Shown here in pieces: positions 5,670 to 18,891 of a stretch of DNA of 64,000 nucleotides. The stretch comes from an uncultured Polaribacter sp. Lineage in GTDB: Bacteria > Bacteroidota > Bacteroidia > Flavobacteriales > Flavobacteriaceae. The notes beneath the pieces were generated by a model. The model was not told the DNA's origin. It did no database searches and worked only from the letters and a program-made list of their open reading frames with translations. The stretch covers positions 1 to 64,000 of the forward strand of contig CANMHT010000006.1 in assembly GCA_947497755.1 (NCBI GenBank), read 5' to 3'. A program made the translations under genes and the position numbers. Positions within the stretch are counted from its first letter, which is position 1. Each line of letters begins with the position of its first letter.

Positions 5670-6137
5670 ATGAATATCTATTACTATTTAATAATAATAA
5701 TCTGTAGCTATATATTGTATTTAACTATAAATAATATAGTAAAACTCAAAAGGAATTTTAAGGGTTTAAAAATAAGATATGAAAATTTGTTTGATGGATA
5801 TCAAGAGTTGTGTAAAGAAAAGAGAATTATAGTAAAGAAAAATGAATTGTCTCATTTTGAGTTAGGAAAAAGTGTTAATGAATTGTGTATGATAATTTCT
5901 AAAATACGTACAGATTATACAGATATAGATGAAATCTATACTATTGAATTTTTGTTGAGTTGTTATGTTGAGGATAAAGAAAATATGTCGTTAACCGTTA
6001 AAGAGTTATGTGAGAAAAATTCATTTATCAATAATCAATACGATTTAAATGTTTGTAGTCAATTAAAAAATCGTGATAAAATAAATTTTTTAGGGTTAAC
6101 AGAAATTTTTATTAATAAAATAAAACAAAGACAGTAG
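5670..6137 (+). CDS. Hypothetical protein, N-terminal TM helix
   Basis: ORF with hydrophobic N-terminus; stop overlaps GTG start of next gene. Confidence 0.6.
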
Positions 6138-9100
6138 TGAAAAGATTATTTTTTTTAGCGGTTTTATTTTGTCAAATACAATTTTTGCAAGCACAAGCAA
6201 CCTATACTCCAGGATCATCTGCTACAGTGTTAGCTACTCAAATTACCGGAGGAGGAGTTACTATAAACAATCCAGTGATAACTACAGGTGCTTCTTCACA
6301 AGTAGGAACTTTTTCTAATGGAATTGCAGGAGCGGGTTTACAAATAGATACAGGAGTTATTTTTACTACAGGTTCAGTTTCTAATTCATTTTCAACTAAC
6401 ACTTCTACTTCTTCTATAAATGCACCTGGTGGTAATTATACAGATCCAGAATTAATAAGTCTTCAAAATAATGCTACAAGAGATGTAGTAATTTTTGAAT
6501 TTGATGTGACTTTAGATCCATTGGCATCTGTACTAACCATAGATTATCAATTTATGTCAGATGAATATAATGAATATGTATGTTCTTCTATTAATGATGT
6601 TTTTGGTTATTTTGTTAAAAACAATAATCCTTTTGCTGGTGACTTTTATGAAAACTATAAAAATATAGCACTGATTCCGGGAACTACAAATCCAGTAGGG
6701 ATTAGTTCCATAAATAATGGTTCTCCTGGAGGAGGAAACTCTGCAGCAAATTGTATTGATTTAACTCAAAGTGCTCAGTTTTTAGATAATCCAGTAGGAG
6801 GTAGTATTATTTATATGGAATATGATGGTATTACAAAAAAACTAAGAGCTACAGCAAAGAACTTAGTGCCTGGAGGAACCTATCATGTAAAATTGGCTAT
6901 TGCGGATTCAGCAGATTCTAGATATGATTCAGCTGTATTAGTTAATAAAATTAGTGGTTTTTCTGACAATGATGATGATGGAGTGTATGATATTTCTGAT
7001 GTAGATGATGATAATGATGGAATTTTAGATGCTGTAGAAGATGCCAATTTAGATAATGATGACAATCCTTTAACAAATCCATCAGATACAGATGGAGATT
7101 CGATTCCTAATCATTTAGATTTAGACTCAGATGGTGATGGAATTCCAGATAATATTGAAGCTCAAAGCACCAATGGATATATTGCTCCGTCAGGTATATT
7201 TAGTGGAAATGGATTAGATACTGCTTATGGTTCAGGATTAGTACCTGTAAATACAGATGGAGTGTTAGATGGTGCAGATTTTATGGATACTGATGCAGAT
7301 AACGATGGTTTAAATGATACTTTAGAAGCAAATCTTACCTTAAGTGGTGGTAGTGGAAATAATGGTTTAGATAATGCATTTGAGGCTATAGACAATTATG
7401 AAGATCCTAATGGAACTATAGATCATGCAAATAATTTTCCAGATGAAGATTCAGATCTTGGCACTGGAGGAGATGTGGATTTTAGAGATGCAGTTACTTT
7501 GGGAGATAATGATGGAGACGGTATAAATGATAATATTGATTTGGACGATGATAATGATGGAATTTTAGATGAAATTGAAAACACCTGCGATATAACACCA
7601 GGCTATGATGGTTATTGGCCATTTGATAATATTACAAGTGATTTCTCTGGAAACTCTCATAATTTACAAAGCGGAGGACCAGCAGTTTTTACTACCACAG
7701 CTAAAAAAGGAAGTCATGCATTGTCATTTGATGGATCTTATTTTTTACGATTTAGTAATGGTACTTTTATGAATCAGGCAATTACCAATTTTACATATTC
7801 TCTTTGGATTAATCCTAGTACATTATCGGGTACACAAATGATTTTGGATGAAGGAGGAGGAACCAACGGTTTTGCTATAGTGTTAGATGGTAGTACTTTA
7901 AGGTGTTTTGTTGGTGAAGGTGGTGCAGAGCAACAAACCACTACTTTTACCATTCCTGCAACAGGAACTTGGTATCATATTGCAGCTTCATATGCCAATG
8001 GAAACCTAACTTTTTATTTTAATGGTACACCTTCAACAGTATTAAACACAGGTTTAGGGCAATTAGCAGCTCATAGTAATGGAAGTGGATTAGGAGGAAA
8101 AAATAGTAGTAGTGTAGATGGATTATCTGGAGTGGTTAATTTTAATGGTTTGATAGATGAATTTATTCATTATCCAATAGCTTTAACAGGAACAGATATT
8201 GCACGATTATTTAATAGTCCATCCTGTACTCCACCTGATACAGATGGAGACGGTATTGCTAACCATTTAGATTTAGATGCTGATGGTGATGGAATTCCAG
8301 ATAACATAGAAGCTCAAACAACCAATGGCTATATTGCTCCAAATGGAGTATATAATGGAGCTGGTATTGATACAGCTTATCCTACTGGACTTACTCCAAT
8401 TAATACAGATGGAACGGATAACCCAGATTATTTAGACTTAGATTCTGATAATGAAGGAAATAATGATAGTACAGAAGCAGGTTTAACACTAAATGGTGTT
8501 ATAGGAGTAAACGGTTTAGATAGCGCAGTATATACCAATACAACTTATAGCGATGTTAACGGAAACATAGATAATCCAACTAGCTTGCCAGATTCTGATT
8601 CTGATTTAACAACAACTGGAGATGTAGATTATAGAGATGATACCAATGACGTATCTATCGGAACTGGAAATACCTTGTGGCTTAGAGCAGATATTGGTGT
8701 TATTGGTGGGGCAAATGTGACTACATGGCAAGATCAAAGTGACTCCAATGATGATGGTAATTTTACAAACGATAGTAATTTTACTGCTTCTGGAGGTACT
8801 ACTCCAAATGGAACTGCAAACCTGTTAAACTTTAATCCTGTTGTTAGTTTTAATCAAGCTACAAATGATAAAATGACTTTTACAGGGAATTTAAATCCTA
8901 GAAGTATGTATATTGTTTATAATGACAATTCTATTTCTTCTTATACAACTGCTTTTACTAATAATGATGGAGAAGGTATTGGGCATGGAAATAGCAATGA
9001 TTCTCAGGTTTTTAATAGTGCAAATACTCCTCAACATGTTAGAAATGGAGATAATTATGTAAATGGAAAACCAACCAATCTATTATCACATCCAAGACCA

Positions 9101-11689
9101 GATAATTTTGAACAACAAACACGTATTTTCTTAAGTAATTTATCCAATGCAAGTCATACTTATTATGTAGGTAGTGATAGAAATAATTTAGGAAGAACCA
9201 TTAACGGTAGTGTGGCAGAAATATTATTATTTACAGATGCTCATGACGATCCTACAAGGCAAAAAATAGAAAGTTATTTAGCCTTAAAATATGGGTTTAC
9301 TTTAGATAATACCGATAATAGTGGTGCTATTATAGAAGGTGATTATGTATTATCTAATAGCGTAACCAAAGTATGGGATTATACAGCCAATAGCTCCTAT
9401 CATAATGATGTAGCTGGAATTGGTAGAGATGATACGCAAGTATTAAACCAAAAACAATCTAAATCTATTAATTCTGATGCCATTATTACTATGGGATTAG
9501 GAAGCATTGCTGCTACAAATGCAGCCAATGCCAATAGTTTTACTACTGATAAAGATTTCTTAGTTTGGGGAAATAATAATATTGCTTTGGGAGCAACCCT
9601 GCAGCCTGGAGTATTATGTGCTACAAGTTTACAACTCGATAGAAAATGGAAAATTGTTGAAACAGGTTCTGTAGCTACAGTACAAATTGCTGCTACCAAA
9701 GCAACGATAGATGCACATTTGAACAATGCTAGCTTTAGCAAAGTAATTAAAGTAGCTGATAATGAAGCACTAACTTCTAATGTAGAGTTTATATCACTAT
9801 CTGTGGTTACTATTAATGGAGAGCTAAACTATGTTGGTAACTTTGATTTTAATGGTACTAAATTCTTCACCTTTGCTGAAGTTAACGGAATTACGTGGAA
9901 TGGAAGTACAAACTCTTGGTCGGGTGGTTCTGGTCCTGGTGGCGCTCCTAATACTGCTGTGGTAGATAATACTCAATTAGTAACCATCGATGCAGAAGGT
10001 ACTACAAATCATGCTACTTTAACTGCCAATGCACAAGTGGGTTGTGTATGGATCAAAGCAGGTTCTAAATTAAATGTGGCTACCAATACATTCTTACAAA
10101 TTGCTGATCAATTACAATTAGATGGGGAACTTAGAATGGTTGGTTCTGCTCAATTAATTCAAACACATACAGGTGCTAGTCAGGTTACTGGAAATGGTCG
10201 TGCTTTTATTGACCAACAAGGAACTGTAACCACTACTTTTAGATATAACTATTGGACATCTCCAATGAAAGAAGTAGGAAAATCTACATTCTCGGTAAAA
10301 GGAGTAATGAAAGATGGGACTACTCCTACTTCTGTTGATGACTTTAATTTTATGCCGCCAGATATTAACTTTGTTACATACAATGGTTCTTATAATACTT
10401 TAAATGGAGATCACAATACATCACCTATTACCATTGCTAATTATTGGATCAATAGTTTTACTAATGGTTTGGTACGTTCTAGTTGGATTCAGAAATTAGA
10501 AACAGGAATTTTAAACCCAACAGGAGGATATATCTTAAAAGGTCCAGGCGCTGTACAGAATTACACCTTTGTAGGTACTCCAAATGATGGAGATATCACT
10601 ACAGTGATTAATGGAGGATATTCTAGTTTACTTGGTAATCCATACCCATCTGCTTTAGATGCGAACAAACTATTTGAAGATAACAATTCAATAATCAAAA
10701 CTTTGTACTTCTGGGAGCATCTGGGAGATTCGGGTAATCACAATATTGGTGGTTATTTAGGTGGGTATGGTATAAGAAATGCAACCATGGGAATTGCAGC
10801 TACAGCTCCGCCAAACGGAATAGGAGGTTTGGGAGGAACCACAAAAGCACCAGGAAGATATATTCCAGTAGCACAAGGATTTTTTGTAGAAGCAACAGGA
10901 GTAGGAGGTACAATTACATTTAATAATAGTCAACGAGTATACCAAAGAGAGAATGAAGATGGTGGATCTGATTCATTCTTTTTTAAAGGAAAACAAACAA
11001 ATCCATTACCAATACTAAAAATAGGATTTGAGTATAAAAACACAGAGAATAAAACCCTGCATCGTCAATTAGGAGTTTCTTTTAAAGCAGGAAATACTTT
11101 TAATAGAGAAGTAGGTTATGATAGCGAAGTGTTTAGTTTAGATCACTCAGATGCTTACTTTAAGTTTAAAGAAAATAGAGAGAAGTTTGCTATTGTTGGA
11201 ATTGGTGAAATAACAAATGATTTAGAGTTTCCAATAGCTATTTTGGTAGGGAGTTCTGGAGATTTTAAACTGATGATAGACGAAAAGAAACACATAGATA
11301 GAAAAGTGTTTTTAACCGATAAGCAAACAGGAGATAAATATGATTTATCATCAACAGTAAATCTAAGCTTATCTGCAGGAACTTACGAAGATCGCTTTTA
11401 TATATCTTTTGGAGGAACAGTATTATCAGTAGGAGAAGATCAATTAAAAAAGCAGTTAAAGGTATATCATAATAAAAATACCAAAGAACTAATCATTGAT
11501 AAAGAGCCAGAAATAAGAATTACTTCTATTTCGCTATTTAACATACTTGGAAAAAAAATACATGTAAAGTATAATCAAGATAATCAGGTAACTAAAATTA
11601 AATTACCTATTAAAAAAACTTTTAAATCTATATATATCATAAAACTAACAACAAACAAAGGGGTGTTTACTAAGAAGTTAGTTTTTTAA
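6137..11689 (+). CDS. Large (1850 aa) T9SS surface protein: choice-of-anchor-L-like domain, Asp-rich calcium-binding (TSP3-like) repeats, LamG-like domain, type A C-terminal sorting domain
   Basis: GTG start; [22 protein letters not shown] repeats; LamG-like [19 protein letters not shown]...; C-term [19 protein letters not shown]...[10 protein letters not shown]. Confidence 0.85.
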
Positions 11690-11731
11690 AAAGGAATAAA
11701 CTTAAAAAAGTTAACAATAAAATAATTAGGG

Positions 11732-12238
11732 ATGAAAAAATATATAATTGTTTTTATTATATGTAGCCTATGTGTGGTAAATACATATGGACAAAAATGG
11801 TTTAATGGTAAAGAGATGCAAAAATTTTCATCTATAAGTATATCTACAGATCCAAATGAAAATTTTAAAAGTAGTCGTAAAAATATTGCTATCGAATATG
11901 AGCGATCCTATGAAAAATATTACGCTAGGATTGAAGCAAGATATGTAGATCACTCAGAATATTCTTATACAGATGTTAGTTTGGGTGCAGGGATACATTT
12001 TTCTTTCTTTAAACATAAAAGAGACGCTTTTTACCTTGGTATTAGAGCTGGTGCAATTTATAGAAAATCTAATATATATGAAACAGTTGGGATAGAAGCT
12101 GGTATAAATTGGAGGCTAGGTAAAAAAATGATAATAGGAGTAAGAACCACTGTAGATAATAGAACAGATATGAAGCTTTGGAATGCACCTAGTAAATTTG
12201 TAAATAGTAATTATATTAAGTTAGGTATTGTACTCTAA
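11732..12238 (+). CDS. Small outer-membrane beta-barrel-like protein
   Basis: Signal peptide, alternating aromatic beta-strand pattern, ends in LGIVL. Confidence 0.55.
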   Translation: MKKYIIVFIICSLCVVNTYGQKWFNGKEMQKFSSISISTDPNENFKSSRKNIAIEYERSYEKYYARIEARYVDHSEYSYTDVSLGAGIHFSFFKHKRDAFYLGIRAGAIYRKSNIYETVGIEAGINWRLGKKMIIGVRTTVDNRTDMKLWNAPSKFVNSNYIKLGIVL

Positions 12239-12322
12239 ATTAAAATAATTTATGTAAAACAAATAATAAAATATACACGCTTTAATTTTAACATTACAGA
12301 TAACAAATTAAATAATAAGATA

Positions 12323-12598
12323 ATGAGAAAAAAATACAACTTCATATTTTTAGCATGCTTAATGCTAAGTACATTTAGCTATTCACAACGAGGTGTTGGA
12401 ACAAGTAATCCAAATAAATCTTCCATATTAGAGTTAAAGTCAACAAAAAAAGGGTTTTTAATACCAAGATTAACAAAAGTACAAAGAGATAATATTACAA
12501 ATCCAGCAGAAGGCTTGCTTATATATTGTAAAGATTGTAAAGTAAAAACACTATATATCTTTATAGAAGGAGAATGGGGGCAATTAAAGGTAAAATAA
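12323..12598 (+). CDS. Stand-alone N-terminal 'GVGTSNPNKSSILELKSTKKGFLIPRLT' head module protein
   Basis: 91 aa; clearly paralogous to first ~90 aa of the 12657-14333 protein. Confidence 0.7.
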   Translation: MRKKYNFIFLACLMLSTFSYSQRGVGTSNPNKSSILELKSTKKGFLIPRLTKVQRDNITNPAEGLLIYCKDCKVKTLYIFIEGEWGQLKVK

Positions 12599-12656
12599 AT
12601 TGCCATTTACATTTTTTTAAACATAAATACTAAGTTAACAAGTAAATATAATTAAC

Positions 12657-14333
12657 ATGAAAAATGCAAACTTATTACTAATACTATTTATTATGCTATA
12701 TTCATCTATATATGCACAAAAGGGTATTGGAACTAATAACCCAGATAAATCTGCGGTTTTAGAGTTAAAATCTAGTAATAAAGGGTTTTTATTACCTAGA
12801 TTAACAGCAATTCAACGAGATGCTATCATTTCACCAGCAGAAGGATTAATGGTCTATTGTACAGATTGTGTGCCAAAAGGATTATATATATATACTGACA
12901 CTGAATGGGGATTGTTAAAAGGAGATACAGGTAGCGCAGAACTTAAGTATTGTAGTATACAAGGGGTAATTGCTAAAAGTGTTCCAATAACAGATGCATC
13001 TGTTAGTATAATAACAACAGAACTAGATATAGATACATTTGACACTAAAGATATTAAATCTAGTAATTTGCAAATATCAGGAGTTACAGGTGTTATAGTT
13101 AATGATCCGTCTATAGAGTATATACCAGGAGGTAATAATGTAAAAATTACATATCCTCTGAGTGGTACCATCCCAACAAAAAACTTAATGACAGCCACGT
13201 TAACCTTGCCACAAGGAATTAATTGTACTATTAATACCGAGGTCGGAGACGGATATTTTAAAATACAGCCAGAGTTTATTTATACAATAGATTCTTCTAA
13301 GAGCCCAACTAATCAAACATTGTTACAAGGTGTTATTGATGATGATATTATTTTAGAAATCCCTATAGATAATACAATCTCTAAAGGAATTGCTAATGCA
13401 TATGACAGTGATTATAGTGAAGAAATTTTGGATGATGTTGGAGGAAATGCTACTAGATTTAAAACTGCTTACCCAACCACCAATGCTAATGCAGCAAATT
13501 TAGTGGTAACAGTAAGTAAAAATACCGCTGGAGATTTCTTAGTGCCTAGATTGTTATTAGACGAAACTCAGAACTTGGTCACCTTACCAGTGTTAATTGA
13601 TGGCAATGTGTCTTCAATAATCAAAATTAATATTTATGGAAACAATAAATATACAGATTCCTATGGGAATGAATATAAACATATTGTGTCACCTGTAACT
13701 GGGAGAAAATGGTTAGATAGGAACTTAGGAGCAACACGAGCGGCAACCTCGTATACAGATTCAGATGCGTTTGGGAGCTACTTTCAATATGGACGTAAGG
13801 CTGATGGGCACGAACTTCTTAATTCGAGCACGCAAAATACCCAAATTAATTTCTCTACGCAATCAAATAAATTTATTAAACATGCGTATTGGGCAACTGA
13901 AACTAACTATACTTCGTGGGGTCAACGATGGGCACGGCCATCGGGGGCATCGAATCAGGATAACTGGAATGTATTCGATAACCCGTGTCCAGATGGGTTC
14001 CATGTGCCAATGGTGTCTGAATTCATGGCGGAAAAGGCGTGGCTTGAATCAACTCAGGGCTTTGACGCGTTTAACCCGGTTTATACTGGTAAACGCGACC
14101 ATCGTGGGAACTATGTCGAGCAGACATCGCATCATTATAAGATGAGCTATTGGGCGCTAACAAATTATAGCCCATATTCGCACGAAAAGATATATCACTA
14201 TTCGGCCGGAACATACTCGGGAAATAGGATTCGCTTATACAATCCTCATGATGTTAGTAATGCCATGAGTCACGATCCATCGGGGGCATTTGTAGGGTGG
14301 GGACAGCCAATACGATGTATTAATAATCAATAA
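12657..14333 (+). CDS. FISUMP (Fibrobacter succinogenes major paralogous)-type protein; lectin-fold C-terminus, candidate DGR variable protein
   Basis: N-term head module; C-term DSYGNEYKHIVSPVTGRKWLDRNLGATRAA...NPCPDGFHVP...YWALTNYSP...GQPIRCIN matches the FISUMP/TIGR02145 pattern. Confidence 0.85.
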   Translation: MKNANLLLILFIMLYSSIYAQKGIGTNNPDKSAVLELKSSNKGFLLPRLTAIQRDAIISPAEGLMVYCTDCVPKGLYIYTDTEWGLLKGDTGSAELKYCSIQGVIAKSVPITDASVSIITTELDIDTFDTKDIKSSNLQISGVTGVIVNDPSIEYIPGGNNVKITYPLSGTIPTKNLMTATLTLPQGINCTINTEVGDGYFKIQPEFIYTIDSSKSPTNQTLLQGVIDDDIILEIPIDNTISKGIANAYDSDYSEEILDDVGGNATRFKTAYPTTNANAANLVVTVSKNTAGDFLVPRLLLDETQNLVTLPVLIDGNVSSIIKINIYGNNKYTDSYGNEYKHIVSPVTGRKWLDRNLGATRAATSYTDSDAFGSYFQYGRKADGHELLNSSTQNTQINFSTQSNKFIKHAYWATETNYTSWGQRWARPSGASNQDNWNVFDNPCPDGFHVPMVSEFMAEKAWLESTQGFDAFNPVYTGKRDHRGNYVEQTSHHYKMSYWALTNYSPYSHEKIYHYSAGTYSGNRIRLYNPHDVSNAMSHDPSGAFVGWGQPIRCINNQ

Positions 14334-14521
14334 TACATAAAATAACATAAAAATTATCAAAAACACATGAAAAATAAAATGATGGTTTCTACGGTAAACC
14401 CTACTAATTGGTTATAGCGATAATATTTAATATAAACTTGAGTTTGGCCAATGTTTTCTAGGGAGTAAGCCTTAATTAGAATAAGTTTTAATTAGTAAAC
14501 TAAATAAAGTAAGATAAAAAA
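14334..14521 (+). other. Intergenic region between FISUMP gene and RT; possible structured RNA
   Basis: 188 nt without convincing ORF; short inverted repeats ggttt-ctacggt-aaacc and aaact-tg-agttt; directly upstream of RT. Confidence 0.3.
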
Positions 14522-15664
14522 ATGGTACAAAACTACACAAAACCCTTGCCATATATGATGAAACAAGATAGTTACCCTAGCAAGGTTTTTGCAGCGTGGT
14601 TAAGGGTTACTTTTAAGCCATTGTTATTTAAACGCTTACCAACAATAGTATATGGTGGTTTTAAACATGGGTATATTGCAAATTTTATTCAAAAGCATAA
14701 AAAAGCCTACCCTTATTTTGTAAAATTAGATATACAAAAATTTTATCCAAGTATAGATCATCATCATTTAATTGTAGAAACTCAAATGGCTTATAAAGCT
14801 TTATTAGGGTTGCATTATGTGCCTAGAAAGTTTAAACAGCAATTTTTGCCTTTTATACAGCAGTTTTTTTTAGAATTTCCGTTACAAAAGCAAGGATTAC
14901 CTTTAAATTCGTCGGTAAGTAAGGCGCTGGCACCACTATTATATGTGCCCTTTTTTTTAGAGCTCAAAAAAAATGATCAAATTAAATTTATGGTGTATGT
15001 AGATGATATTTTATTATTGTGTAACTCAAAACAAGTAGCTTTAGATACCTATATAAAAATATTTAATTATTTAAAATCTATAGAACTCTCTGTAAATTTA
15101 ACAAAATTGCAGCAAGGATATTTTAGCAGCTCGCAATTAACCTATTGTGGTTATCATTTTGCTGGGGGCTATGTTGCAATTTCGCCAGAAAAACTTGCAG
15201 TATTTAAAGCCAAAATTATATCCTATTGTGAACAAAATCTTATTGTAAACGAAACAGTTTTTATAAAAAACTTAAATAGGTTAATAAATGGTTTTGGTCA
15301 CTATTATAAAAATGCCCACGTAAAAAGTGTTTATCAAAGGTTAGATTCATTTATTAGAGCTCGCGTGCGTAAGTGCTACTTAAACTCGTTGAGATCCAAG
15401 CCAACAAATAACTATTTAAAGAGTGTTGGTCTTAGAAGCTTATTTGACATAAAACTAGCTAAAAAACCAATTATAGCTAGGCTAACTAAAAAGGACTATG
15501 CTTTTAAAGAGCCGAATAAGCAACTAAAAATAAATCGATTACAAAACGAGATTTATATACAACTTTTAGAAAAGATGATTCATCAAAACTCAGAGATAAT
15601 AGGCAAGCTAAATTTGTGTGTTAAAGAACTAGTTGCGTTAAATAAATCTTTAATGAACGTGTAA
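14522..15664 (+). CDS. Reverse transcriptase (RNA-directed DNA polymerase), stand-alone, DGR/group-II-like
   Basis: FVKLDIQKFYPSIDH (motif 3), QGLPLNSSVSKALAPLLY (motif 4), MVYVDDILLL catalytic motif at 14996-15007, YCGYHFAGGYVAISPEKL (motif 7), thumb-like LNRLINGFGHYYK...RLDSFIRARVRK. Confidence 0.9.
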   Translation: MVQNYTKPLPYMMKQDSYPSKVFAAWLRVTFKPLLFKRLPTIVYGGFKHGYIANFIQKHKKAYPYFVKLDIQKFYPSIDHHHLIVETQMAYKALLGLHYVPRKFKQQFLPFIQQFFLEFPLQKQGLPLNSSVSKALAPLLYVPFFLELKKNDQIKFMVYVDDILLLCNSKQVALDTYIKIFNYLKSIELSVNLTKLQQGYFSSSQLTYCGYHFAGGYVAISPEKLAVFKAKIISYCEQNLIVNETVFIKNLNRLINGFGHYYKNAHVKSVYQRLDSFIRARVRKCYLNSLRSKPTNNYLKSVGLRSLFDIKLAKKPIIARLTKKDYAFKEPNKQLKINRLQNEIYIQLLEKMIHQNSEIIGKLNLCVKELVALNKSLMNV

Positions 15665-15683
15665 ATAATCTTGACTTATATTA

Positions 15684-15818
15684 ATGAAAAATTATTCACA
15701 AATCTATAGGTACTTGTATATCTATAGTCAATATTGGATAATTTACAAGGTTTCAAAGCAACAATTAAACAAAATACTGACTATATTAAAAGAAGGAATT
15801 CCATTTAAAAATAGATAA
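15684..15818 (+). CDS. Possible small protein (44 aa) downstream of RT
   Basis: ATG-to-TAA ORF MKNYSQIYRYLYIYSQYWIIYKVSKQQLNKILTILKEGIPFKNR starting 20 nt after the RT stop; not in supplied ORF track. Confidence 0.3.
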   Translation: MKNYSQIYRYLYIYSQYWIIYKVSKQQLNKILTILKEGIPFKNR

Positions 15819-15830
15819 TTAAACACAAGT

Positions 15831-17195
15831 ATGTTAAGAGTATATTTATTAGCATTATTACTAGTATGTAATATGTTACAAGCGCAACATAATATAATTG
15901 GAAATTTAGCGCAATATAAAAATCAAAAAATTGTTTTATATGGCTTTAATTATGAAGAAAAAATAGAGCTAGCGAGTACAACAATTGACTCTATAGGTAA
16001 CTTTAAATTAAACTATACAGAATCTTATAATGGTATTGCAGTTTTATCAATACTTAATAAGGAACAAGTTTTGTTTGTATTAACAGAACCTAAATTACAT
16101 TTAGATAAGGGCTTCTTTGATAGAACCTCAAAATTTCCGTTTACAAATAGTAAAGAAAATTCTCTTTTTTTTAATTATAAAGAAAAGCTAAAAATAAATC
16201 AACAGATCTTGCCTGCGTTGCAGCACTTGTCGATGAGATATTATGATAATCCTTTATTAAAAAAACAAAAAAAAATTTGGAAATTAATGAAGAAAGAACA
16301 AGAAAGAATTAAACTAGAAGAAGAAAAATTTATTGCAAGTTTGCCTAAAACTAGTTATTTATCTTGGTTTTTACCTTTATATAAATTAATGCATGATATG
16401 CCTTTAACAGCCAATGTGTTTAAAGAGCGTATATCTAAAAATATAACCACCTTTAGAACGATTAATTTTAAAGATAATAGATTTAAAAATAGTGGTATAT
16501 ATGAAGAATTAATTAGAGGTCATTATATTTTTTTAGGTGCTGTATCTAAACCTATGGATACTGGCTATATTCAAATGAATAAGAGTACAAGATATTTAAT
16601 TAATAGTTTAAAAGATGACAAGATAAAACTAAACAAGACAGCAAACTTTCTGTTTAATTTTTTAGAAAAGCGTAGTTACTTTAAAGCTTCAGAATATTTA
16701 TCATTAACCTTATTAGAAGAACATTATGATTTACTAGAGAGGTCATTAATAAATAAACTTGAGGGCTACCGAAAATTAAAAATTGGAAATATTGCTCCAG
16801 ATATAGACTTAGATGCAACTACTAAATTAAGTGATATTAAAAAAACAACTTTATTAGTTTTTGTAGCGAGTTGGTGTCCAGAATGTAAATTAACTAATGA
16901 AAGATTATTTAGATATTATCTGACTTGGAAAAATAAAGGAGTAGAAATAATATATTTTAGTGTAGATACAGATAAAAATGCATTTGAAACGGTATATGCA
17001 AATGCTCCTTGGAAAGTATATTCAGATTTTAAAGGTTGGGAATCTACTCCAATAAAAGATTTTTATGTGTCAGGAACACCTACCTTTTTTTTATTGAATG
17101 AAGAGTTAAAGATTCTGTCAAGACCGAAGTCGGTTGAACAAATCAATGCCATCATAAAAAACATGAGTAGCAAAGTAAAAGGTATAGATAAGTAA
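15831..17195 (+). CDS. TlpA/AhpC-type thioredoxin-fold protein, exported
   Basis: Signal peptide; LLVFVASWCPECKLTNERLFRYY redox motif; GTPTFFLLNEELKIL. Confidence 0.85.
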   Translation: MLRVYLLALLLVCNMLQAQHNIIGNLAQYKNQKIVLYGFNYEEKIELASTTIDSIGNFKLNYTESYNGIAVLSILNKEQVLFVLTEPKLHLDKGFFDRTSKFPFTNSKENSLFFNYKEKLKINQQILPALQHLSMRYYDNPLLKKQKKIWKLMKKEQERIKLEEEKFIASLPKTSYLSWFLPLYKLMHDMPLTANVFKERISKNITTFRTINFKDNRFKNSGIYEELIRGHYIFLGAVSKPMDTGYIQMNKSTRYLINSLKDDKIKLNKTANFLFNFLEKRSYFKASEYLSLTLLEEHYDLLERSLINKLEGYRKLKIGNIAPDIDLDATTKLSDIKKTTLLVFVASWCPECKLTNERLFRYYLTWKNKGVEIIYFSVDTDKNAFETVYANAPWKVYSDFKGWESTPIKDFYVSGTPTFFLLNEELKILSRPKSVEQINAIIKNMSSKVKGIDK

Positions 17196-17202
17196 TTATA
17201 GA

Positions 17203-17442
17203 ATGAACAAAAGAGTTATTTGCCCTTATTGTAATTCTATTAATATAATAAGAGTAAAGAGAAGAAAGATTTATAAACTAGTATATAAAGCAAGACTTTA
17301 TTGTTGTCTAAATTGTTTCAAAATGTTTTTAAAAGTAAAATTTTCTGATAATGTCATTCGATTGCTTAGTTTAGCACTGTTTATAGTTTTATTTATGGGA
17401 ATACTAGTTGTTACTCTTTTATTTGATTTAATTATATATTAA
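17203..17442 (+). CDS. Small zinc-ribbon + transmembrane protein
   Basis: CPYCNSINII...YCCLNCFKMF followed by TM helix. Confidence 0.6.
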   Translation: MNKRVICPYCNSINIIRVKRRKIYKLVYKARLYCCLNCFKMFLKVKFSDNVIRLLSLALFIVLFMGILVVTLLFDLIIY

Positions 17443-17543
17443 AAAGGAAACAATTAATGTATTTTTTTTGTAAAAACTATAATTGTTAAAGTTATTATCA
17501 GAAAATTTTACTTATCAAAACACCAAGTTAAATAGAAGGTATT

Positions 17544-17684
17544 TTATTTTTTGAGTATCTTCTTTAACCAATCGGGAAGTAAATGATGAAAATGTTCTTT
17601 AAAAAAGAACAAAAATTTAATAGCAATAAAAGTAAAGATAAATACAAAAAGAATCTCTTCAGAATAATTTTTTAAGAATTTCAT
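17544..17684 (-). CDS. Possible small membrane protein (46 aa)
   Basis: MKFLKNYSEEILFVFIFTFIAIKFLFFFKEHFHHLLPDWLKKILKK; not in supplied ORF track. Confidence 0.45.
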   Translation of the reverse strand: MKFLKNYSEEILFVFIFTFIAIKFLFFFKEHFHHLLPDWLKKILKK

Positions 17685-17758
17685 GTTTTCGGGGCTTAAA
17701 TATTTTTTCGAATCTAATAAAATTATTTTATTCGTAGTATATTGAAAGACAAAATCTA

Positions 17759-17868
17759 CTAATTTGGTTTATCCTTCTTTTGGGTGCTACAAGCATTTAA
17801 AAAGACTACTAACATAAGTGATGGAAATACTATTGGGTATTTATTGATAAATTGATTTTTTTAAACAT
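17759..17868 (-). pseudogene. Short lipoprotein ORF apparently interrupted at a poly-A(7) tract
   Basis: Frame ...KNQFINKYPIVFPSLMLVVFLNACSTQKKDKPN* has a lipobox (LNAC); upstream ATG TTT AAAAAAA is out of frame by one base. Confidence 0.35.
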
Positions 17869-18096
17869 ATTTATTAGATTAATTTATAAATCAAAACTAC
17901 AATCTGTCTAAGATTCTGTCTATTTTTTAACTCTCAGTTGTTGAATAATAGTGATGAGTTGTTGCTACAGCTAAATAACGGTTTTCTGTAAGGTTTGTTG
18001 TGGAGAAACTAGTCATGTATCATATCAAAATATAATTAATAAGATTACACTCTAAAGAGGAAATTTATCGACAATCAATGATATGCATTGTTATCT

Positions 18097-18891
18097 TCAG
18101 TTATTTAATATTTTATTTATCATTTCTGCAGTTTGAGTAGGTTTTTCTAGAGGAAACAAATGCCCACCATCAAATGCTATTGTGTTAAAGTTAGGAAAGC
18201 TGTTTTTCCACCAATTAACATCCGATTTTTTAAACAAAGTACTTTTGTTGCCATAAATAAGTGTGCCTTTTAGTTTACTTATCCCCTTTGGTAGTTTTGT
18301 ATATGTAGAACGATATATTTCTGCTTCTATTTCTTTTGAAAATGCTAGTTCAAAACCATTCTTCCTTTTTTTTAGTCCATATTTAAGATAGTCTGAAAAG
18401 CAATGTTTGTTAAAATGTTGGAATAGTTTTTTGGTTTTAAAATGCTCTTTGGCGTTATTTAGTGACTGAAAAAAGGACTTTCTTTTTAAGGTTCTTTTTA
18501 CCGGACCAATATAATTTTTTAATCCAATAATTTTCATCGCTTTTATAATCCTTCTTTTCCAAGGATTGTAAAGAATGGGGTCGATCAAAATAACTTTTTC
18601 AAAGAGTTCTGGTTTTATTGATGCTGCAATTAAAATAAGAGTACCACCAGTAGAATGTCCAATTCCTATTACAGGAGTAGTAAATTTTTTTTCAATGGAG
18701 TCGATTAATTCTAACGCTAAATTTTCAAGGTTTCCAATGATTTTAAATCGATCATGTCCCATTAAATTGACATAATTGATATCTGCATTGTCAATAGAAT
18801 TAAAAAGATGGTTAAAACACTTTGCAGGAAAACCATTTGGATGGGCAAACTGAATGGAATTCTTTTTCATTTCTTTTTGTCTTAATACCAC
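18097..18891 (-). CDS. Alpha/beta hydrolase
   Basis: GIGHSTGGTLILIAA nucleophile elbow; DPILYNPW; FDGGHLFPLEKP. Confidence 0.85.
   Translation of the reverse strand: MVLRQKEMKKNSIQFAHPNGFPAKCFNHLFNSIDNADINYVNLMGHDRFKIIGNLENLALELIDSIEKKFTTPVIGIGHSTGGTLILIAASIKPELFEKVILIDPILYNPWKRRIIKAMKIIGLKNYIGPVKRTLKRKSFFQSLNNAKEHFKTKKLFQHFNKHCFSDYLKYGLKKRKNGFELAFSKEIEAEIYRSTYTKLPKGISKLKGTLIYGNKSTLFKKSDVNWWKNSFPNFNTIAFDGGHLFPLEKPTQTAEMINKILNN

Follow-up and report, generated by a model that had tools for sequence, protein, structure and literature searches.

A reverse transcriptase of a non-DGR class in the gap that holds diversity-generating retroelements in two Polaribacter congeners

To our knowledge bacterial targeted hypermutation is held to have arisen once only, in the reverse transcriptases (RTs) of diversity-generating retroelements (DGRs). 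An accessory gene, bAvd or another, is common in DGRs without being universal. The known DGRs form one clade with an adenine bias, and the authors of that work saw no convincing DGR outside it (PMC8144416). Among the UG classes of RT, those of UG4 are found beside fimbrial operons, 66% with fimbrial domains (PMC8934634), and while UG4 accompanies fimbrial genes other UG classes act in defence (PMC8934634, PMC12632851).

The stretch of DNA analysed here (‘the window’) is 64,000 nucleotides from the genome of an uncultured Polaribacter, 99.6% complete and with roughly 3,400 genes. A preliminary description pointed to a FISUMP gene directly followed by an RT gene and considered the pair a candidate DGR. 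What is new is that the gap between FISUMP and thioredoxin-like genes is a syntenic ‘slot’, that it contains a DGR in two congeners and that in the window it contains an RT of another class. The reading we favour, with about an even chance of being right, is that this is not a DGR but an exchange slot in which an unrelated, independently working RT stands in place of a DGR-type cassette.

The locus and its counterparts in relatives

The left flank of the syntenic locus is a gene for a secreted protein of 1850 aa (6137..11689, on the + strand, as are all features of the window given below), with a laminin-G-like domain and a weak type IX sorting tail, and it bears a weak similarity to proteins of ~520 aa encoded to the left of FISUMP genes in relatives. 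After it comes a secreted 168-aa protein without family (11732..12238), in the position taken by an outer-membrane beta-barrel gene in one relative (locus L256), the match being one of position. The 91-aa gene that follows (12323..12598) encodes nothing but the module with which FISUMP proteins begin, is 55% identical to 12660-12920 in the next gene and is apparently a truncated tandem copy. The next gene is the FISUMP gene itself (558 aa, 12657..14333), and a gap of 188 nt (14334..14521) separates it from the RT gene (14522..15664), whose 380-aa product has intact catalytic motifs and a maturase-like thumb. A second gap (15665..15830) leads to a thioredoxin-like gene of TlpA type (15831..17195), the right flank of the slot. 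The ORFs, coordinates and strand given for the 91-aa, FISUMP and RT genes in the preliminary description are exact. No predicted terminators beyond chance lie along these same-strand genes. The N-terminal module (residues ~6-90) has ~16 copies in the genome, on differing C-termini; they lie on contigs C1, C3, C5, C8, C9 and others, with a tandem trio at C1:275112-277159, and the module is also found at locus L062.

FISUMP genes have an ortholog of this TlpA-type gene as their direct neighbour at 12 related loci. Of these loci 11 are from congeners and one is from another genus, and the orthologs are 40-44% identical in most and 36% in one. Two of the congeners, with loci L256 and L249, have a full DGR in the FISUMP-thioredoxin gap, comprising RT, bAvd and template repeat (TR), with the 3′ end of the FISUMP gene as VR; tblastn found no RT in the slot of the other 10. 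The order in L256 (genome G934) is FISUMP (8874-9767), a 183-aa ORF, DGR RT (10501-11709), bAvd (11673-12032; PF22296, 5.5e-16), TR (12225-12409) and thioredoxin-like gene (12449-13792), and TR and VR (9582-9766) mismatch at 24 of 185 positions, all except one of the 24 (23/24) at an A of the TR. L249 (G036) repeats this arrangement on the opposite strand, its TR being at 16571-16638; its DGR RT (17171-18375) is in two ORFs of 294 and 66 aa and apparently frame-broken, with TR and bAvd retained. Fragments of the 183-aa ORF follow RT-less FISUMP genes in three loci (L251:12104-12256, L252:9896-12278 and L257:9469-9585), possibly as further DGR targets or their remnants. L240 and L239 (G917 C47) have a FISUMP tandem array with 17 DRNLGA motifs in 36 kb and a slot without RT.

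The RT at 14522-15664 is the sole RVT_1 gene found in the window’s genome, it sits in the slot, and its class differs from that of the congener DGR RTs. The plasticity of the locus, where two of the related loci have transposase-like genes, and the lack of the RT in 167 further species of its genus, from which it follows that it was acquired, could be taken to mean that it inserted at random by a FISUMP gene, with neither a slot effect nor a functional link. However, with one detectable RT the naive chance of its landing in a DGR slot is about 1 in 3,400 genes, so one should not simply presume that RT and FISUMP are independent, and we hold such coincidence to be quite improbable. An exchange hot spot would raise the chance of an RT landing there. 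The suggestion that the proximity of the two genes is meaningful has gained support from the congeners, where the same gap holds a DGR whose VR is a FISUMP 3′ end.

Class of the RT and the search for DGR components

The identification of an RT with YVDD was sound (RVT_1 8.9e-15 and GIIM 2.4e-9 in Pfam; YVDD at residues 159-162). Motif 3 reads KLDIQKFYPSIDH, with the pattern KLDI.KFYPSIDH and a short spacing to motif 4, both as in DGR RTs; motif 4 is GLPLNSSVSK, with Leu where aligned group II RTs have Gln and DGR RTs Ile or Leu. The nearest PADLOC class is UG38 (PDLC03777, a model without curated cut-off) at 161.5 bits, the match taking in residues 5-311 of the RT and model positions 4-308 out of 309; the second-best, UG17, gives 87 bits. 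Controls on the UG38 model range over 55-98 bits (group II RTs 90-98, DGR RTs ≤57, UG17 RTs 55-61). Since 161.5 bits is far under the 406-463 bits of UG17 members on their own, comparable, model, the RT is better termed UG38-like, perhaps a sister and not a core member. DGR profiles score it at 49-75 bits, lower than they score a group II RT, the UG4 model at 52 bits and TIGR04416 at 80 against a cut-off of 300.

In a tree of 41 rows, including 26 DGR RTs, 12 group II RTs and two UG17 rows, the DGR RTs are one clade (support 100/98), the group II RTs another (100/100), and the RT is outside both, on a long branch and weakly grouped with the UG17 rows (92/62). Topology tests reject its grouping with a congener DGR RT (p 0.023) and are compatible with its being sister to the DGR clade (p-AU 0.475) or added to the group II clade (p-AU 0.41). 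In fold, the model of its structure (pLDDT 76) comes closest to the GsI-IIC RT 6ar1, followed by the G2L4 RT 9d4s, with the DGR RT 8ub7 further away; this is weak evidence because the MSA was built from DGR, group II and UG17 RTs. Around the ORF there is no Rfam match to group II intron RNA or domain V. Profile and tree together place the RT in a non-DGR, UG38-like class. Phylogeny had been named in the preliminary description as a check on the RT: membership of the DGR clade fell by it, a secure place among the group II RTs did not emerge, and no intron ends were found. A partial sampling of ~1,000 distinct genomes yielded no close relatives; viral scans with the RT protein and two alignments returned only group II and DGR RTs and no UG38 relatives, and a plasmid and phage search only distant RTs, the matches listed there being plasmid group II introns and one unannotated phage record.

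The lack of an A-rich second copy of the target’s 3′ end, and of an Avd-like accessory gene, noted earlier by eye, is borne out. When one template base (first A, then each of the other three) was allowed to mismatch freely and 13600-14521 was compared with the whole window on both strands, the scores for each of the four were 12-16, the same as for shuffled DNA, and for C, G and T this disposes of a non-A template. The A-wildcard scan finds the TR/VR pairs of 13 viral DGR loci (scores 51-95, with non-A mismatches almost nil) and gives 131.6 and 41.4 for the two congener DGRs. A remote template, as had been suggested, did not materialize: a genome-wide BLAST with 13680-14521 gave, apart from chance hits, only 54 bp of match in a paralog, and the sole hit of an A-tolerant 50-base pattern was to itself. 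Between RT and next gene, where the two congeners have bAvd and TR, there is neither, and the gaps hold no bAvd remnant; the C-terminus of the RT was considered as a fused Avd and rejected, having no similarity. Nor does the FISUMP-RT gap have a TR or Rfam match, and folding is unremarkable there (z -0.13) and in the RT-thioredoxin gap (z -0.68), dismissing a structured ncRNA in either. No partner gene or ncRNA for the RT was identified.

As the RT is of a different kind and template and accessory gene are absent, the locus is not a DGR. A canonical DGR at 12657-15664, and with it the candidate originally proposed, is refuted by the missing TR and Avd, the place of the RT outside the DGR clade and changes that are not A-specific (see below). 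Might it be a decayed or split DGR, with an RT that is sister to those of DGRs though highly divergent, and with bAvd and TR lost or the TR in an assembly gap? The sequence of motif 3 and its spacing to motif 4, the compatible sister position and the slot shared with congener DGRs would all suit that. Against these are DGR profile scores that even a group II RT surpasses, the exclusion from the DGR clade, the rejected grouping with a congener DGR RT, the maturase-like thumb and the absence of a TR from so complete a genome, so that of the readings considered here this is the one we hold least probable.

The divergent FISUMP domain and the exchange slot

Within the FISUMP gene the constant 5′ part (12657..13745) has normal codon usage (z -0.4), whereas the FISUMP domain (13746..14309) is extremely diverged, with codon usage at z -9.7, its windows the lowest of 578, and G-rich four-fold sites; the change in composition, at about 13.7 kb, is sharp. 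The RT gene is mildly odd in codon usage (z -4.0). GC3 over the domain is 0.36-0.54 compared with 0.13-0.34 in relatives, and its four-fold sites, with G at 0.37 and C at 0.10, reveal a stable, non-uniform shift. That the C-terminus is of FISUMP type holds by alignment with relatives, 37 of the 38 aligned matching both TIGR02145 and PF09603; the window’s copy, too diverged, matches neither and retains DRNLGA, NPCP and IRCI. A C-type-lectin fold for the target’s 3′ end is supported by the family alignment and PF09603 homologs, its own structure model (pLDDT 51) being too poor to confirm the fold or to make a fold search informative. In a domain tree its branch, at 4.9, is the longest (median 0.63, next 2.25), and its partner there is a paralog from its own genome (SH-aLRT 95, with a long branch).

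Adenine mutagenesis is rejected as the cause of this oddity, the four-fold sites being ~40-50% G whatever the base in the paralogs. Overprinting also fails: an open stretch of 132 codons in the +1 frame, where paralogs reach 74 at most, arises in 17% of synonymous permutations. An open +1 frame of 126 aa at 13765-14145 inside the domain is accounted for by codon usage. The domain also has an exact 13-bp direct repeat, CCATCGGGGGCAT, at 13938-13950 and 14277-14289, in the same frame (PSGA). No foreign donor was found. From its sequence the domain is most simply explained as imported or anciently diverged; a strand-biased mutational process behind the codon shift is possible.

Several features invite the thought that the RT itself is the diversifier of the FISUMP end and needs no TR of its own; it might, for instance, copy the target mRNA with errors, after which the cDNA would recombine with the gene. 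The genome’s only detected RT occupies the slot of a FISUMP-editing DGR and has Leu at motif 4 as some DGR RTs do, and the domain beside it has the longest branch, fails models that nearly all relatives pass and is shifted in composition within its own limits only. We nevertheless think it unlikely: the sets searched hold no close homolog of the allele, there is no TR, IMH-like or structured RNA signal, the codon shift, being stable and non-uniform, resembles foreign codon bias more than fresh random mutation, and the N-terminal module is also on many RT-less genes. That the part of a DGR is now played here by an RT of another class, which diversifies a C-type-lectin-fold surface protein with neither separate TR nor Avd, we regard as slightly more doubtful again.

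Under the favoured reading of an exchange slot, the syntenic surface-protein locus consists of a type IX-type secreted protein, FISUMP genes and a thioredoxin-like gene, and the gap from the last FISUMP gene to the thioredoxin-like gene would be open to cassettes, being empty in most relatives, with a DGR in two and a single intact UG38-like RT here. The RT probably arrived as a stand-alone gene through recombination in a plastic locus and, lying on the same strand as its neighbours, may be transcribed with them in operon-like fashion. It would reverse-transcribe an RNA of its own in a task unrelated to FISUMP editing; to judge from its class, and from what other UG/Abi and group-II-like RTs do, defence or DNA repair is the likeliest. 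The unusual FISUMP domain would be a diverged one that entered the gene by exchange, with the conserved DRNLGA block as the point of entry. Against this reading stand the slim chance of a lone RT landing in the DGR slot, the failure to find a foreign donor for the domain and the domain’s grouping with a paralog of its own genome.

Can RT classes other than that of DGRs assume their role? Relatives with a DGR and one species with a different RT in the slot constitute a natural test. The locus also points to a function for the UG38-like class, on which we found no text in the open literature. Even if the RT is merely a passenger, there is an illustration here of RT-cassette exchange beside hypervariable surface genes.

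Comparison with described systems

UG4 RTs are similar in being a non-DGR class that adjoins surface-protein genes, though the low score of the UG4 model sets the window’s RT apart from them. Group II and G2L4 RTs share the GIIM thumb and provide the nearest solved folds, 6ar1 and then 9d4s; the RT differs from them in motifs 3 and 4, in its TIGR04416 score and in having no intron RNA. UG38 is the best-matching class, with an end-to-end match and a similarly compact N-terminus, despite a score well below member level as judged from the UG17 model. DGR RTs in general have (I/L/V)G...SQ as motif 4, whereas the window’s RT has LN..SK. Unlike the FISUMP-target DGRs of the two congeners, the window has an RT of another class and lacks TR, bAvd and an A-specific VR. 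Nevertheless, the synteny of the locus is plain, and like those DGRs the window has its RT between FISUMP and thioredoxin-like genes, on the same strand and with a C-terminal FISUMP domain as neighbour.
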